Of a DNA stretch of 41,965 bases, positions 4,502-39,838 are shown piece after piece. The notes below the pieces were generated by a model. The model saw only the letters and a list, made by a program, of their open reading frames with translations, made no database searches and was not told the DNA's origin. A program made the position numbers and the translations under genes. The DNA comes from Planctomycetota bacterium (lineage in GTDB: Bacteria; Planctomycetota; Phycisphaerae; Sedimentisphaerales; Anaerobacaceae), in the NCBI GenBank assembly GCA_020351025.1, contig CP070728.1, forward strand, positions 1,051,447 through 1,093,411. Reading direction: 5' to 3'. The first letter of the stretch is position 1, and each line of letters opens with the position of its first letter.

Positions 4502-6271
4502 TTATTTGAGCTCGTTTTCTTCTGCTGTGTGCCGATCGGCTTGTGTGCTTATGTGTTCCCTAAGGATTTGGAAATCCTCGGCGTCGATTTTACCGTCGGT
4601 GTTGATATCGCCGAACTGATAGCTTTCTGGTGCTTTTATACTGACCATAAAATTATTCAACAGTGTATTGAAGTCCAGCTCATCGACGATGCCGTCGGAA
4701 TTTAGGTCATACCAAGAGATGCCGTGACCTTCTTGCTTGACGCTGACGCTCCAGGCTATGCCATATCGCTGGCTTATCTCCGGCTTGTTCGCCTCGTTAA
4801 GGTCACTATAGAAGACCGCAATTTCATAATTGGTGTAATTGGGATCTGTCCTGCAGTAAATGTGCTCAAGGTTATCAACCTTGCTGTCGCTGTAGTCGAG
4901 CAGGTAGTAGTTTTCAGGATTCTCTTTGTTAACAGCCCATAGTTCAAGTCGCAGATTGGCGTCTTTCTCCGGTAGTGGCTCAAAAGGATAAGCGCTGGTG
5001 TAATGCTTATTCCAAACAAGCGTAGCGGTAATAAATTTGTCGGCCGGCTCTGCAACCGTGACCCTATAAAAGTTTAACGGTTTTTTGTCTTTTTGGAGAT
5101 GGTTTAAGTCCCATCCAATTGTTGGAACGTCCCCAGGTTTTTTTATACCTGCAATTAGATGTTTGTAGGCACCAACGGCGTTTAACATTCCTGAGCCTTG
5201 AATATAGTCGAGGGGAACCTGATGGTCATCGTCGGTTCCCAGCCTGCCCTTGTGCCAGTAGGGCAGTTTCGTTGCAGAATTTACTAAAAGAGCTTTTATT
5301 ACGCAGTTACCGCCGTAAGGTGAAATAGCGGCATTCAAACTTGAGTCCTGTTTTGCTTTTTGAACGAGAAGACCGATTGTCCCTGCTACTATCGGTGTTG
5401 AGAAGCTCGACCAGTTACCTGTCGGCTTGTAATGGTTGGGCTCGTTTGCGTCAGCGGCCAGGCAGTTGCCGGGAGCGACGATATCAGGCTTACATCGCCC
5501 ATCGTCAGTTGGGCCGCAACTGGAATGCTCCGGATAAGCAAAGCAGAATTGTGACAGGTTGTTTGGGAGGTTTTCGGTGTTTACAGAATCAACGACTCCA
5601 ACGCCAATAACATTAGCACCGGCACCAGGGTAAAGTAGAGGGTCATAAACATGGGAGCCGTTTCCTATACCGGCGACTACAATCAGCCCAAACTGTTCAG
5701 CCATAGATTCGATTCCTCTTGTCCACCAGTCTTCAAACTGTTTTCCGAAGCTGGCGGTCAAAATATCCGCATCAGGAGCTGAGCCGGCAAATATGTTGTT
5801 GGCTAAAAAATGCCAGAACTCGTAGATGTCGGCCTCGGCCTGCGGTGCAGCACCTTGGTAATAGAATTGTCCGAGCCGGGGATTAAATGCTTCATGGTCT
5901 TTGCCGAACAGTATTGAGCAAATAGCTGTTGAGTGTGGTGATATGCCAGCTGGCAGTTCGTCCTGGCCGTAAAAGCTAAATTGCCTATTCTTTAGGCAGT
6001 CGTGCTCTGTGCTTGGGCGATAATCGTTTTGTGGTTCTCCATTGATATAGGTAATGCTTCTGCAGATGACAGCGAATTTGGTGCCGAAACCCGTCAAATT
6101 GGGGTCGAGCTCTCTGAGGGTATATATTCCCGCTGCATTTAAGCCTTGTGGCTGCAGTATCTTATCTGTCTGTTGCTTTTCAGATGCGTCAGCAGCGTTA
6201 GCTGCTATCAGCGTTGCTATTACACAAGCGACCAGGCACAAGGCGAGCAATTTTTTGGCTCTGTCAGCCAT
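4502..6271 (-). CDS. Secreted subtilisin-like (S8) protease with C-terminal dockerin
   Basis: Start chosen at the ATG at 6271 because a near-perfect GGAGGAAGG site lies just upstream; an upstream in-frame extension has none. The 589-residue product starts with a signal peptide (MADRAKKLLALCLVACVIA...). The S8 fold is recognisable from the His motif PHSTAICSI (H113), a VVAGIGNGS oxyanion segment, KPDIVAPG and the Ser motif WSSFSTPIVAG (S289). The position expected to hold the catalytic Asp reads AVICRSI (C70) instead of AVID[ST]G. The C-terminus (about 525-580) holds two dockerin-type calcium repeats, DLNSDGIVDELDF and DINTDGKIDAEDF. Dockerins normally bind cohesins on scaffoldins or cell-surface proteins; no cohesin is visible here. 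Secreted and probably surface-tethered; whether it is an active peptidase is open. Confidence 0.85.
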   Translation of the reverse strand: MADRAKKLLALCLVACVIATLIAANAADASEKQQTDKILQPQGLNAAGIYTLRELDPNLTGFGTKFAVICRSITYINGEPQNDYRPSTEHDCLKNRQFSFYGQDELPAGISPHSTAICSILFGKDHEAFNPRLGQFYYQGAAPQAEADIYEFWHFLANNIFAGSAPDADILTASFGKQFEDWWTRGIESMAEQFGLIVVAGIGNGSHVYDPLLYPGAGANVIGVGVVDSVNTENLPNNLSQFCFAYPEHSSCGPTDDGRCKPDIVAPGNCLAADANEPNHYKPTGNWSSFSTPIVAGTIGLLVQKAKQDSSLNAAISPYGGNCVIKALLVNSATKLPYWHKGRLGTDDDHQVPLDYIQGSGMLNAVGAYKHLIAGIKKPGDVPTIGWDLNHLQKDKKPLNFYRVTVAEPADKFITATLVWNKHYTSAYPFEPLPEKDANLRLELWAVNKENPENYYLLDYSDSKVDNLEHIYCRTDPNYTNYEIAVFYSDLNEANKPEISQRYGIAWSVSVKQEGHGISWYDLNSDGIVDELDFNTLLNNFMVSIKAPESYQFGDINTDGKIDAEDFQILREHISTQADRHTAEENELK

Positions 6272-34194: not shown

Positions 34195-36378
34195 CTATTC
34201 TCCTGCCATTTCCTTCAGTAAATTCCTGATTTCATCTACCTTATCTACATTAAAGCGTGCCTTTGAAATACCCAAGCCAACTTTTAATGTATACCCGCCC
34301 TCAGGCATCACTGCAAACATCTCTTCATCGGTATAATCGTCACCCGCCGACAAAATAAAATCCCAATCTTCTCTTCCGAGCCACTGCTTTGCGGCACGAC
34401 CCTTATTTATCCCAAGATGCCTTACCTCAAGTATCTTATTGCCTTCGAATACCCCAACATCCATATTCGCTGTCAGGTTCACAAGGGCGTCTCTCAGCTC
34501 CTGAGTCCTAATATAGGACAGCTCAGGGTCTGACCGGCGAAAGTGCCAGACAAGCGAAAAGTCCTTTTCTTCCATCGACGAACGAGGCGTCCTATCTGTG
34601 TAAAGCTCCAGTATTGGCCTGATTGTATCCTTCCAGTCCTCACGTAACGGCTCTATACACGCCCAATCTTTATCTCTAAGCCTAATCCAGGCACCATGTT
34701 CGGCGATTAATGTTATCCTTAGACCACCGAGCCACTGATTTATCGTCGCTTTATCACGTCCACTTATCAATACCACTTCGTTTTTAGGATTATCGGATAA
34801 ACTCTTTAAAAGGTTCATTATTTCTGTATCCGGTCCAGCCTGCTCGGGTCTACCGCTAAAGCCAACAAGAGTACCATCGTAATCCAAAAATAGTAGCCGT
34901 TTTTTACCTCTGCGAAATTCGCTAATTAATCTATGCCTTATGTCTTCGGACAGCCGACGCACTGTTACCTCTTGTTGTGTCTTCTTTATTTCAGTCAGGG
35001 CACTTAAAAAGTCACTAATCCATCGTGAAACGTCGTAGCGCTTAAGGCGATTTTGCATTAGCCGGTTTCGCTCCAACTGTTCAGAAACGGGCATCTCGAT
35101 AGCTTCTTTTATAGCCTGTACTATCTCTTCTTTATTATTAGCATTAACTATAATAGCCTCTCCTAACTCACTTGCTGCTCCTGTCATCTCACTCAGCACT
35201 AAAACACCTCTGCCGTCGGTCTTCCCAGCAACAAACTCTTTTGCTATTAAATTCATTCCATCTCGCAAAGGTGTAACTAAGGCAACATCAGCAACGTGAT
35301 ATAACGCTGAAAGCTTCTCGAAGGCAAGGCTCCGGTAAAGATACCAAACCGGCATCCAGCCGTACACCCCGTATTCACCATTGAGCCTTCCTACAAGCTG
35401 CTCGAGCCGGCTCCTAAGCGCAATATATTCCCCAACACGTGTCCGTGATGGAACTGCTACCATAATTAACGTAACTTTCCCCCGGTATTTGGGATTCTTA
35501 CAAAGAAACAAATCGAACGCCTCCAACCGTTCTATAATACCCTTCGTATAGTCCAATCGGTCTATTGATAGAACTATTTTCCGCTCCCCTATTTTCTGGC
35601 GGATTCTCTTGACCTCTTGCTGAACTGAAGAAAGCATCGATGCTTGCGAATATTTTTTATAGTCTATTCCCAAAGGAAATGCATCTACTTTTACTATACG
35701 GTCATCTATGCTCAGTTTTCCCAATGTATGTTCGAGACCTGCTATGCGACATACACTGCGCAAAAAATGTCGGGCATAGTCGTGTGTATGAAATCCTATC
35801 AGGTCTGCTCCCAAAAGCCCGTTTACAATTTCTTTACGCCACGGCAATAACCGAAACAGCTCAAATGATGGAAACGGTATATGTAGAAAAAAACCTATTT
35901 GTTGACCAGGCAGCTTCTGCCGTACCAGTTCGGGAACAAGCATAAGGTGGTAATCATGTATCCATATCCTATCTCCCTTTTTAGCAATCTTCACAACTTC
36001 ATCGCAAAATATTTGATTGACCTGCTTGTATGTCACCCAGAAACGGTTTTCGTATATCGTACGCAAGGGAAAATAGTGAAAAAGAGGCCAAATTGTCTTA
36101 TTGGAAAAACCCTGATAATAGTTCTCAACTTGTTTTTTTGTAAGAAAAATTGGAATATAGTGCTCTTTGCTTAATCTTCTGCTGATTTCAGTTCTATCTT
36201 TATCCGTTAGCTTCTTGCCTGTCATCCCGGACCATCCTATCCAGAAGCTTTCATGTGTTTGGGAAACAGAAGAAAGTCCCGTCGCAAGACCACCTGGGCT
36301 AAGACGAAAGTTAAGCTCGCCAGAGCGCTTTGTGACGCTGATTGGCAATCTGTTTGAAACAACAATTAATCTTGGCAT
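34195..36378 (-). CDS. otsA: Trehalose-6-phosphate synthase / phosphatase fusion (OtsA-OtsB)
   Basis: 727 residues. The N-terminal GT20 domain (about 1-480) shows SNRLPISVTK, GGLATGLSS, WIHDYHLMLVPELVR, FLHIPFPSFELFRLLP and DRLDYTKGI, all typical of trehalose-6-phosphate synthases. The C-terminal HAD phosphatase (about 485-727) has the nucleophile motif LLFLDYDGTL (about 495) and GDDYTDEEMF (about 685). It makes trehalose-6-phosphate from UDP-glucose and glucose-6-phosphate and then dephosphorylates it. An AGAGGGG site precedes the ATG. It is followed directly by treT, so two independent trehalose routes appear in one transcript. Confidence 0.94.
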   Translation of the reverse strand: MPRLIVVSNRLPISVTKRSGELNFRLSPGGLATGLSSVSQTHESFWIGWSGMTGKKLTDKDRTEISRRLSKEHYIPIFLTKKQVENYYQGFSNKTIWPLFHYFPLRTIYENRFWVTYKQVNQIFCDEVVKIAKKGDRIWIHDYHLMLVPELVRQKLPGQQIGFFLHIPFPSFELFRLLPWRKEIVNGLLGADLIGFHTHDYARHFLRSVCRIAGLEHTLGKLSIDDRIVKVDAFPLGIDYKKYSQASMLSSVQQEVKRIRQKIGERKIVLSIDRLDYTKGIIERLEAFDLFLCKNPKYRGKVTLIMVAVPSRTRVGEYIALRSRLEQLVGRLNGEYGVYGWMPVWYLYRSLAFEKLSALYHVADVALVTPLRDGMNLIAKEFVAGKTDGRGVLVLSEMTGAASELGEAIIVNANNKEEIVQAIKEAIEMPVSEQLERNRLMQNRLKRYDVSRWISDFLSALTEIKKTQQEVTVRRLSEDIRHRLISEFRRGKKRLLFLDYDGTLVGFSGRPEQAGPDTEIMNLLKSLSDNPKNEVVLISGRDKATINQWLGGLRITLIAEHGAWIRLRDKDWACIEPLREDWKDTIRPILELYTDRTPRSSMEEKDFSLVWHFRRSDPELSYIRTQELRDALVNLTANMDVGVFEGNKILEVRHLGINKGRAAKQWLGREDWDFILSAGDDYTDEEMFAVMPEGGYTLKVGLGISKARFNVDKVDEIRNLLKEMAGE

Positions 36379-36688
36379 AGTCCCCTCTTAGTGCATGCAG
36401 CACAGCCTGCCCTACAAACGAATATCATATCTATTAGCTCGGTGGGTTTTTTGGTAAAATTTCGTGAAAACATATGTTATTTCTACAGTATAGGAAAATG
36501 ACAAATAATTACAAGATTGAAAGTTAATAAATTGTCCGCTCCCATGTATTGTTGAAAAACACTAAAATGACCTTATCGAGCCAAAAGAAGATGTTTTTCA
36601 CGAAATAACATAAGCTTTAAGTTTTGGTTTGACTGAAACGAAAACTTTAGTTAACGTTAAAATTCATTTTTGTTATCGAAAATATAGT
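36379..36688. other. 310-nt divergent intergenic region
   Basis: Between otsAB (minus) and the TMTC-like gene (plus). It is AT-rich. A TTGACT at 36629 with a poor -10 is the only plus-strand promoter candidate, and gtgc-atgca-gcac forms a small hairpin near the otsAB start. Nothing else was recognised. Confidence 0.4.
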
Positions 36689-38461
36689 ATGGGAAAAAAC
36701 AAAAAGCGCACAACAAAAACACCTTATGCCGCTAAAAATTCATCATCCCACCCGCTCGCTATTGCCGTTATTATTCTTTTCGCAACATTAGCCGTTTATT
36801 GGCAGGTCTTGAGTCACGAATTTATTAATTTGGATGACAACAAATACGTTGCAGAAAATCCTCGCGTCCAACAAGGATTAACTTGGGAAAATGTCAAATG
36901 GGCCTTTACAACAAAACACGCCAGCAACTGGCACCCTTTGACCTGGCTTAGTCATATGTTGGATTGTCACTTATTCGCCTTGAATCCAGCGGGGCATCAT
37001 TTGGGTAATTTGCTCTTTCATCTGCTAAACACGCTGCTATTGTTGTTGGTCCTTCATCGCTTGACAAACGACCTTTGGCCCAGCGCCTTCGTGGCAGCAC
37101 TGTTTGCGTTGCATCCTTTACAAGCAGAGTCTGTGGCATGGGTTGCAGAACGAAAGAATGTTTTGGGTATGTTTTTCTGGCTACTCACAATGGGGGCATA
37201 CCACGGATATGCCGAGCGTCCGGGCTTTATGAGGTATGTATTGGTTGTAATCTTGTTTGCCTTCGGTCTAATGGCCAAGCCTATGCTCGTAACAGTTCCT
37301 TTTGTTTTACTCCTGCTGGACTACTGGCCGCTAAGACGCCTCGGGACTGATGTACCGAAGCCATCTGTCGGAACTGCTAAGCATCACAGGTCAACCTTTG
37401 GGCTTATCTTGCTTGAAAAAGTGCCTCTCTTGGTTTTAGCGGTTGTCTCAGGCGCCTTTACACTGCGGGCCCAGCAGGCTGTAACAGTCTCTTTACGGGC
37501 GCTTGACCTGCATTCTCGTATAGCTAATGCGCTGATATCATATCTCGTTTATCTAAGAATGACGATTTGGCCTGCGAAACTTGCCGTATTTTATCCTCAC
37601 ATAGGAAAGCTTCTCCTGTGGCAGGAAGCGGCAGCAGCTGCTGTCTTGGTAGTATTGACGGTTTTAGTGATTTGGGTGCGCCGTCGCTATCGTTATTTGC
37701 TCGTTGGCTGGTTGTGGTATTTGGGGACACTGATTCCGGTAATTGGTATCATTCAGGTTGGCACTCAAAAATATGCAGACCGCTACGCATATGTGCCTTT
37801 GGTTGGCATCTTTATTATTATTGCTTGGGGTGTACCTGATATTCTAAAACGCGTACGCTACAAAAAAACGGCATTGGCAATATCATCAGCTGCTCTGCTG
37901 TCGGCTCTGGCGGTTTGTACTTCCTTTCAGGTGAGCTACTGGCACGACAGCATCACTTTATATGAACATGCCCTGAAAGTGACACAGGATAATCACTTGG
38001 CGCACAACAACCTGGGAGTAGCCCTGAAAAATCGCGGCAGGCTCAATGAGGCTATGGCACAATGGAGATTAGCGCTGGAGGTCTTTCCTCTCTACGGTGA
38101 TGCAATTGCCAACTTGGCACCGGAGCTCGTCGAAAGAGGCCGAGCTGACGAGGCAATTAAGTATTGTAACGACTTCATTCAGCAAGGTCGGGATCATTGC
38201 CAGGTACGAAATAACCTCGGAAATGCATTTAGAGAAAAAGGTGAAATTGATGAGGCCATTAAGCATTATCAAAGAGCACTACAGCTGAAGCCAAACGCTT
38301 GGCAGGTCCACTACAATCTTGGCTTGGTCTTAACTGAGAAACTAAACTTTACTGAAGCCGTCAAACATTTTCAAGAAGCACTACGCTTTTCTCATAATAA
38401 CCCCATTGTAAGTAAAGCACTCAGTGATGCAATGAACAAGAAACGCCAATTAAGTGATTGA
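36689..38461 (+). CDS. TMTC-like multispanning membrane protein with C-terminal TPRs
   Basis: Start placed at the ATG of MGKNKKRTTKTPYAAK; a TTG 20 codons earlier is less plausible. The 590-residue protein has about ten hydrophobic segments in the first 420 residues, with a loop HEFINLDDNKYVAENPRVQ after the first helix that matches the glycosyltransferase-C-like family including eukaryotic TMTC1-4 O-mannosyltransferases (an LDD acidic motif follows the first helix). FALHPLQAESVAWVAERKN is also typical. The C-terminus (about 440-585) has four TPRs, e.g. AHNNLGVALKNRGRLNEAMA. Role inferred: lipid-linked sugar transfer to proteins. It is separate from the exosortase cluster. Confidence 0.82.
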   Translation: MGKNKKRTTKTPYAAKNSSSHPLAIAVIILFATLAVYWQVLSHEFINLDDNKYVAENPRVQQGLTWENVKWAFTTKHASNWHPLTWLSHMLDCHLFALNPAGHHLGNLLFHLLNTLLLLLVLHRLTNDLWPSAFVAALFALHPLQAESVAWVAERKNVLGMFFWLLTMGAYHGYAERPGFMRYVLVVILFAFGLMAKPMLVTVPFVLLLLDYWPLRRLGTDVPKPSVGTAKHHRSTFGLILLEKVPLLVLAVVSGAFTLRAQQAVTVSLRALDLHSRIANALISYLVYLRMTIWPAKLAVFYPHIGKLLLWQEAAAAAVLVVLTVLVIWVRRRYRYLLVGWLWYLGTLIPVIGIIQVGTQKYADRYAYVPLVGIFIIIAWGVPDILKRVRYKKTALAISSAALLSALAVCTSFQVSYWHDSITLYEHALKVTQDNHLAHNNLGVALKNRGRLNEAMAQWRLALEVFPLYGDAIANLAPELVERGRADEAIKYCNDFIQQGRDHCQVRNNLGNAFREKGEIDEAIKHYQRALQLKPNAWQVHYNLGLVLTEKLNFTEAVKHFQEALRFSHNNPIVSKALSDAMNKKRQLSD

Positions 38462-38574: not shown

Positions 38575-38601
38575 ACTACGCTCTTCAGCGAGTGTTTTTT
38601 T
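38575..38601 (+). terminator. Intrinsic terminator after the TMTC-like gene
   Basis: act-(a)-cgct pairs with agcg-agt around a 4-nt loop (7 bp, one bulge), followed by gttttttt. It lies about 115 nt after the stop codon and just before the promoter at 38608. Confidence 0.5.
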
Positions 38602-38607
38602 CTTGAT

Positions 38608-38635
38608 TTGAACTCTGAAATTTGGTATATATAAT
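38608..38635 (+). promoter_or_regulatory. Promoter of the orphan RNA candidate
   Basis: TTGAAC, 16-nt spacer, perfect TATAAT at 38630-38635. An overlapping pair TTGATT (38603), 17 nt, TATATA (38626) is also possible and would start the transcript near 38638, exactly where the closing helix begins. Confidence 0.65.
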
Positions 38636-38637
38636 GT

Positions 38638-38870
38638 TGCTGGCTGACCTCTGCTGTGTACGTATTGAAATAAGATTTGAAAAAACCGATACCCGTACTC
38701 AGGGAAATCGGGCCTTGATGGATCGAAAATGCCTACTCGATAGGACTTTCGGACACAAGCAACGATTACCCACTTTGAAATACTGGGTTTGTTCAGACAC
38801 TTTCTTACGGCGTCAGCGGTGGAAAGCCAAGCAGTTAATAAAAGGCCTGTTTATACAGGCCTTTTTCTTT
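38638..38870 (+). ncRNA. Candidate structured non-coding RNA (orphan)
   Basis: No credible coding sequence occupies this stretch, yet it has a promoter in front and a strong terminator behind. By hand it folds into a closed multibranch structure. The closing helix joins 38638-38656 with 38814-38833 (about 16 bp: tgct/agca, ggct/agcc, a GA/AA internal loop, then cctctgctg/cagcggtgg with one mismatch). Inside are three hairpins: 38686-38711 (ccgat/atcgg and ccc/ggg), 38724-38751 (cgaaa/tttcg and ccta/tagg) and 38761-38793 (aac/gtt and accca/tgggt). It does not match tmRNA, RNase P, SRP or a rod-like 6S RNA as I know them. Transcription and function are inferred. Confidence 0.55.
38842..38870 (+). 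terminator. Strong intrinsic terminator ending the RNA candidate
   Basis: Perfect 9-bp stem aaggcctgt/acaggcctt with a ttat loop, followed by a T-rich tract (tttctttttc). The 287 nt that follow, up to the next gene, show no further clear feature. Confidence 0.85.
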
Positions 38871-39157
38871 TTCACAATTCTCCCCCTTTGCAGAGCTGAG
38901 TGGTATCGACCTATCAAGGTCCCTTTATCCAAACGAATCCTCAAAAAATTACGTCTTTTCAACGGAAAAGTTCTTGCATAAATAACTGTAGGTTGGTAGT
39001 TTGCTCCCGGTTTATTTCCTGTCGAGTGGTAAACCTGAGCGGAAAGCGTCATAAGTGGTTTTCGACTATAAGCGGGCTTTGAAAAACCAAGAGTCTAATG
39101 TTGACTATCGACATCGTAAATCTAAGACGTAATTTATTCGGTATAGGGAGGAATATT

Positions 39158-39838
39158 ATGTCCAGAAATAAGATGTGCGTGTGGTTTGCTGTATTGGGTT
39201 TCGCCGCAGTGTGTGGTTTTTTTGTTGGGTGTAAAGGTTTGGCCATCCGACCAACTGCTGCACCATCGGATGTATTGGGCCCTTACGAACTCGACAGTGA
39301 TGGATTCATAACTGACTGGCTCGTCGTTGGGCCTTTTCCCAATCCCGGAGATAGACCGGACAACAAAGGCTTTCACGTCGATTACCTGAAAAACTATGGG
39401 GGCGAGGCAAATTATGTCCCCGTCAACGGTAATGAAGTAGCCAAAGACGACAAAACCATAGTAAAATGGGCGCAATACCAATCGAGACATTACTCCAGAA
39501 TCAACTTCTTCTCCATTGACCATCTTGGCCTCGGCTATAACGAAGAAGACATCCTTGTATACGCTGGTTGCTTGCTCGAATGTGAAAATGATATGCAGCT
39601 TGAATTAAAAATCGGCTCTGATGATGGTTATAAACTTTGGCTTGACCATAAACTTATTGGCCAGCAGCACATCTACCGTGCAGCTTACCAGGACCAGGAA
39701 ACATACCCCGTTAAACTTTTAAAGGGAACACACATTGTCCTTATAAAGGTCGACCAGGACTACGGTTCCTTTGAATTTATGATGCGAGTGGTCACTCCTG
39801 ATGGTAAAAGAGCAACAGGGATTAAGGTTTGGAACTGA
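39158..39838 (+). CDS. Lipoprotein with PA14-like beta-sandwich domain
   Basis: Start at the ATG of MSRNKMCVWFAVLGFAAV, preceded by an AGGGAGGA ribosome site. The 226-residue product has a lipobox FFVGC (Cys about residue 25). The segment DWLVVGPFPNPGDRPDN followed by a domain with LKIGSDDGYKLWLDHKLIG and LLKGTHIVLIKVDQDYG is a recurrent beta-sandwich module of planctomycete surface proteins related to PA14/carbohydrate-binding folds. The carbohydrate-binding role is inferred; no enzyme motif is visible. A promoter was not identified. It sits alone between the RNA candidate and the large leader. Confidence 0.8.
   Translation: MSRNKMCVWFAVLGFAAVCGFFVGCKGLAIRPTAAPSDVLGPYELDSDGFITDWLVVGPFPNPGDRPDNKGFHVDYLKNYGGEANYVPVNGNEVAKDDKTIVKWAQYQSRHYSRINFFSIDHLGLGYNEEDILVYAGCLLECENDMQLELKIGSDDGYKLWLDHKLIGQQHIYRAAYQDQETYPVKLLKGTHIVLIKVDQDYGSFEFMMRVVTPDGKRATGIKVWN

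Follow-up and report, generated by a model that had tools for sequence, protein, structure and literature searches.

We analysed a 41,965-nt stretch of planctomycete DNA (the window; contig CP070728.1, positions 1,051,447 to 1,093,411), in which a 233-nt segment at window positions 38638-38870 lies between two genes on the same (+) strand. Upstream is the gene for a TPR protein (36629-38461, +), whose TPR repeats were found in a domain search, and downstream is an uncharacterised ORF (39098-39838, +) with no match in Pfam or NCBIfam. Most of the loci that we fetched from relatives extend about 1.5 kb to either side of the RNA; among these loci, the downstream gene neighbours the RNA in a single relative (L019), and the upstream TPR gene does so in no case. 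Farther upstream, on the minus strand, a fused gene encodes a trehalose-phosphate synthase (GT20) and a trehalose-phosphatase (34195-36378).

The segment carries its own putative transcription signals, all on the + strand. A scan for promoters identified a sigma-70-type promoter at 38603-38635 matching the consensus at 10 of 12 positions, with a perfect TATAAT (38630-38635) and the hexamer TTGAAC (38608-38613) 16 nt upstream of it. The -10 box lies within TATATATAAT (38626-38635); reading the relatives by eye, the -35 box may instead be the overlapping TTGATT (38603-38608), used with TATATA (38626-38631). At the other end, the scan found an intrinsic terminator (38840-38870) whose hairpin, AAAAGGCCUG-UUUAUA-CAGGCCUUUU at 38840-38865, has 11 pairs including the A-U ends and is followed by the U-rich tail TCTTTTTC; folded alone, it has a z-score of -5.7. 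The distance from promoter to terminator is about 230 nt. Both signals are also conserved: just upstream of the corresponding RNA, 25 of 30 aligned copies have a hexamer resembling the -10 box and agreeing with it at 5 or more of its 6 positions, and in all 30 a terminator-like hairpin follows closely. In the window, a second hairpin of this kind, ACGCTC...GAGTGT followed by a T-run, lies just upstream of the promoter (38578-38600) and probably ends the transcript of the TPR gene.

Family assignment, fold and start motif

A sequence-only reading of this DNA had described the segment as an orphan RNA of unrecognised class, bounded by a promoter directly upstream and a terminator at its end; it proposed a search of Rfam, in which a hit would make the RNA known rather than new. 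The two boundary signals are in place as described. In the search of the whole window against Rfam, a single family scored above its gathering score: RF00013, the 6S (SsrS) RNA. The match (38645-38826, +) spans the full model with both ends complete (positions 1-187) and its score of 55.2 bits (E = 2e-8) exceeds the gathering score, 46.4, by only 9 bits. The segment is therefore neither an orphan nor a member of a new class; it is the ordinary 6S RNA gene of this planctomycete, and with one RF00013 match in the entire genome the RNA is single copy. Weaker matches to sraA, STnc350, the rimP leader, the Thr leader and RyhB were rejected as chance, because all five cover the terminator hairpin and fall far below their gathering scores.

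The 233-nt segment is unusually stable, with a folding energy of -79.2 kcal/mol (z = -4.5) that was equalled by none of 200 shuffled sequences; corrected for GC content, its energy is lower than that of all 209 control windows of the same length. We aligned 30 copies, including the window's own, by sequence only with MAFFT and derived a consensus structure with RNAalifold. The consensus is a single unbranched rod made up of a closing stem, an inner stem, a central bubble and an apical stem. Compensatory changes occur in 29 of its 47 pairs, and 93.4% of cells are paired compared to 83.0% in shuffled alignments and 39-50% when the pairing partners are slid, although this consensus was drawn from the same alignment on which it was scored. 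As an unfitted control, we projected the Rfam structure onto the alignment: 77.0% of cells are paired compared to 71.6% (shuffled) and 38-48% (slid), and 31 pairs are changed on both sides compared to 22.5 after shuffling. The Rfam fold fits the middle of the apical part poorly (59.6% of cells paired in helix 3), a region in which the lineage follows a pairing of its own.

In the window, the 5' strand of the closing stem (38640-38670) pairs with 38801-38831. In the consensus, this stem is made up of helices 1-3; the main helices have 10-11 pairs each, many compensatory changes occur, and 94-96% of cells are paired. The outermost pairs of the stem, upstream of 38649, come from the single-sequence fold only. 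Next to the bubble is the inner stem, in which UUGAAAAAACC (38677-38687) pairs with 38786-38796; it has 10 pairs, 5 of them with compensatory changes, and 89.9% of cells paired. The central bubble, unpaired in the consensus and lying between covarying stems, has two strands of 14 nt each: GAUACCCGUACUCA (38688-38701) on the 5' side and, opposite, ACUUUGAAAUACUG (38772-38785), which aligns with ACCUUGAACC-A in E. coli. The apical stem, with its internal loops and terminal loop (38702-38771), comprises consensus helices 5-8, with 90-99% of cells paired and compensatory changes in 12 pairs.

This fold agrees in part with what had been read from the sequence alone. The ends do pair with each other as described, and compensatory changes support the closing helix in 10 of 17 pairs even in the projected Rfam structure. 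In contrast, the multibranch fold with three separate hairpins gives way to the conserved 6S rod seen in the consensus of the 30 relatives. One local hairpin, CCCA...UGGG in the region 38768-38788, has no unusual stability alone (z = 0.01) and competes with the rod. The segment does have the character that had been proposed for it, that of a structured non-coding RNA, probably stand-alone, with promoter-like and terminator-like signals of its own; in relatives it is conserved and shows covariation.

We also built a covariance model of the lineage (R1) from the copies of 30 relatives. In E. coli K-12, it recovers ssrS where that gene is annotated (5979-6172 in the fetched locus L036, annotated at 5984-6166) with 36.4 bits and an E-value of about 1e-9, a reverse test that is partly circular in that the members of the model were found with RF00013, which does not make a match in E. 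coli automatic. In the R1 alignment, the CCGAU motifs of the lineage and of E. coli coincide. The U of the E. coli motif is nucleotide 44, and U38690 of the window falls opposite it. In E. coli, U44 is the known start of the product RNA (pRNA). By alignment of this motif, U38690 is the predicted start in the window RNA, and the predicted pRNA would begin 5'-AUCGGUUUUUUC....

Distribution in relatives and across the phylum

Among 60 relatives, 49 have an RF00013 match, in one place each and in 45 cases above the cut-off, so the RNA is conserved. Scores reach 74.9 bits within the same order and 86.9 within the phylum. Four of the 11 relatives missed by RF00013 (G014, G023, G037 and G045) yield the RNA with R1, so limited sensitivity explains some of the misses. 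Assembly gaps may account for others; several of the remaining genomes are 68-88% complete. Within the same class, three genomes from a single genus (G060, G084 and G128), 99-100% complete, have no 6S match by either RF00013 or R1, and in this genus the RNA may truly be lost or strongly diverged.

Across the phylum, we searched 294 sampled Planctomycetota genomes, each at least 90% complete, and found RF00013 matches at E ≤ 0.001 in 145, of which 74 are over the cut-off. One genome (G285) has two matches (C1:274203-274382 and C12:1007728-1007907); these could be two 6S RNAs, an assembly duplicate or a contaminant. A sequence pattern specific to the lineage, ACCGAT ... CCCACYTKGAAATAMTGGGTT, is present in 11 genome contigs; all the titles that name a group say Planctomycetota, planctomycete, Phycisphaerae or Phycisphaerales, and the other two read 'uncultured bacterium'.

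For the window itself, annotating this conserved global regulator is routine, and the one modest use of the result concerns the distribution of 6S RNA. As cited in PMC5673643, Wehner et al. (2014) reported 6S RNA to be absent from Pirellula and Rhodopirellula. Such absence calls within the planctomycetes may partly reflect the sensitivity of the model. Here, in contrast, about half of the sampled genomes of the phylum do have a match, and several further relatives yield one with R1 only, so calls of 6S absence that rely on the general model should be rechecked in the Planctomycetota.

Proposed action and alternative readings

With a structure that imitates an open promoter, 6S RNA occupies the sigma-70 holoenzyme as growth slows; it is released when polymerase synthesizes a short pRNA from a strand of the bubble, unwinding the inner stem (PMC9130861, PMC10406553). 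By homology with the 6S RNAs of E. coli and B. subtilis, the window RNA would act in the same way. It would be transcribed alone from the sigma-70-type promoter and ended by the intrinsic terminator, giving an RNA of about 190-230 nt that would fold as a long rod, the central bubble imitating an open promoter; a stand-alone transcript of about 180-200 nt is expected of the 6S family. Mainly when growth slows, it would bind the holoenzyme of the housekeeping sigma factor and block this enzyme at promoters on DNA. Once nucleotides return, polymerase would copy the 5' bubble strand from about U38690, and synthesis of the pRNA would unwind the inner stem and free the enzyme. The anatomy of the RNA is consistent with every step: pRNA synthesis would begin from a nucleotide at the bubble's edge, and its template, after the first bases, runs on into the inner stem at UUGAAAAAACC. 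The genome also encodes proteins with sigma-70 region 2 (11 matches). We put the probability of this joint explanation, an ssrS gene with its own promoter and terminator, a rod fold and 6S action by homology, at about 0.97.

A 3' hairpin forms in E. coli 6S RNA on release (PMC10406553), and the CCCA...UGGG hairpin may be its counterpart here. It is conceivable, if unlikely, that the rebuilt apical stem of the lineage and its own version of the 3' bubble strand, CCCACYUUGAAAUAMUGGGUU, reflect altered contacts with a polymerase or sigma factor of planctomycetes, or a change in the release hairpin.

The original idea of a structured small RNA of a new class, whose likeness to 6S RNA would then be only superficial, draws on the modest bit score and on the departure of the mid-apical stem from the Rfam pairing. 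Set against these, the match covers all 187 positions of the model, many relatives score far higher, R1 finds E. coli ssrS, and the window RNA and E. coli have the pRNA motif CCGAU in common; a new class is highly improbable, and was rejected on the Rfam match together with the recovery of ssrS. The segment had also been said to hold no plausible reading frame. This was too strong as to the frame itself: one is open across the segment, an ORF of 119 aa with a TTG start (38622-38981), and translated comparisons with it pick up relatives. Those translated matches sit on the RNA itself, however, and track its nucleotide conservation, and the changes in the stems are compensatory. A coding role for this ORF is very improbable: it has no Pfam or NCBIfam match, and of the 30 copies, counting that of the window, just 6 have any frame open across the RF00013 match, the other 24 having stops in all three frames. 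These stops in relatives practically rule out a small protein-coding gene in place of the RNA, a reading to which we give almost no weight. The 119-aa frame crosses the 6S RNA by chance.

It is scarcely credible that the RNA is 6S-like with a changed function, such as Ms1 of the actinobacteria, which binds the core enzyme and not the holoenzyme. Ms1 is structurally related to 6S RNA and likewise binds RNA polymerase, but it is about 300 nt long and carries additional hairpins at both its 5' and its 3' end (PMC9130861). The window RNA, in contrast, has the size of a 6S RNA and the form of a plain 6S rod, matches RF00013 and keeps the pRNA start motif.

The closest known system to the 6S RNA of the window is E. 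coli ssrS, the type represented by RF00013. The two are alike in size, in a rod with a closing stem, central bubble and apical stem, in the CCGAU start motif, in having promoter and terminator signals of their own, and in being single copy. They differ in that the window sequence has diverged and its mid-apical stem pairs unlike the Rfam consensus, and in their setting: E. coli ssrS is flanked by zapA and fau, whereas the window copy lies between the gene for a TPR protein and an uncharacterised gene.
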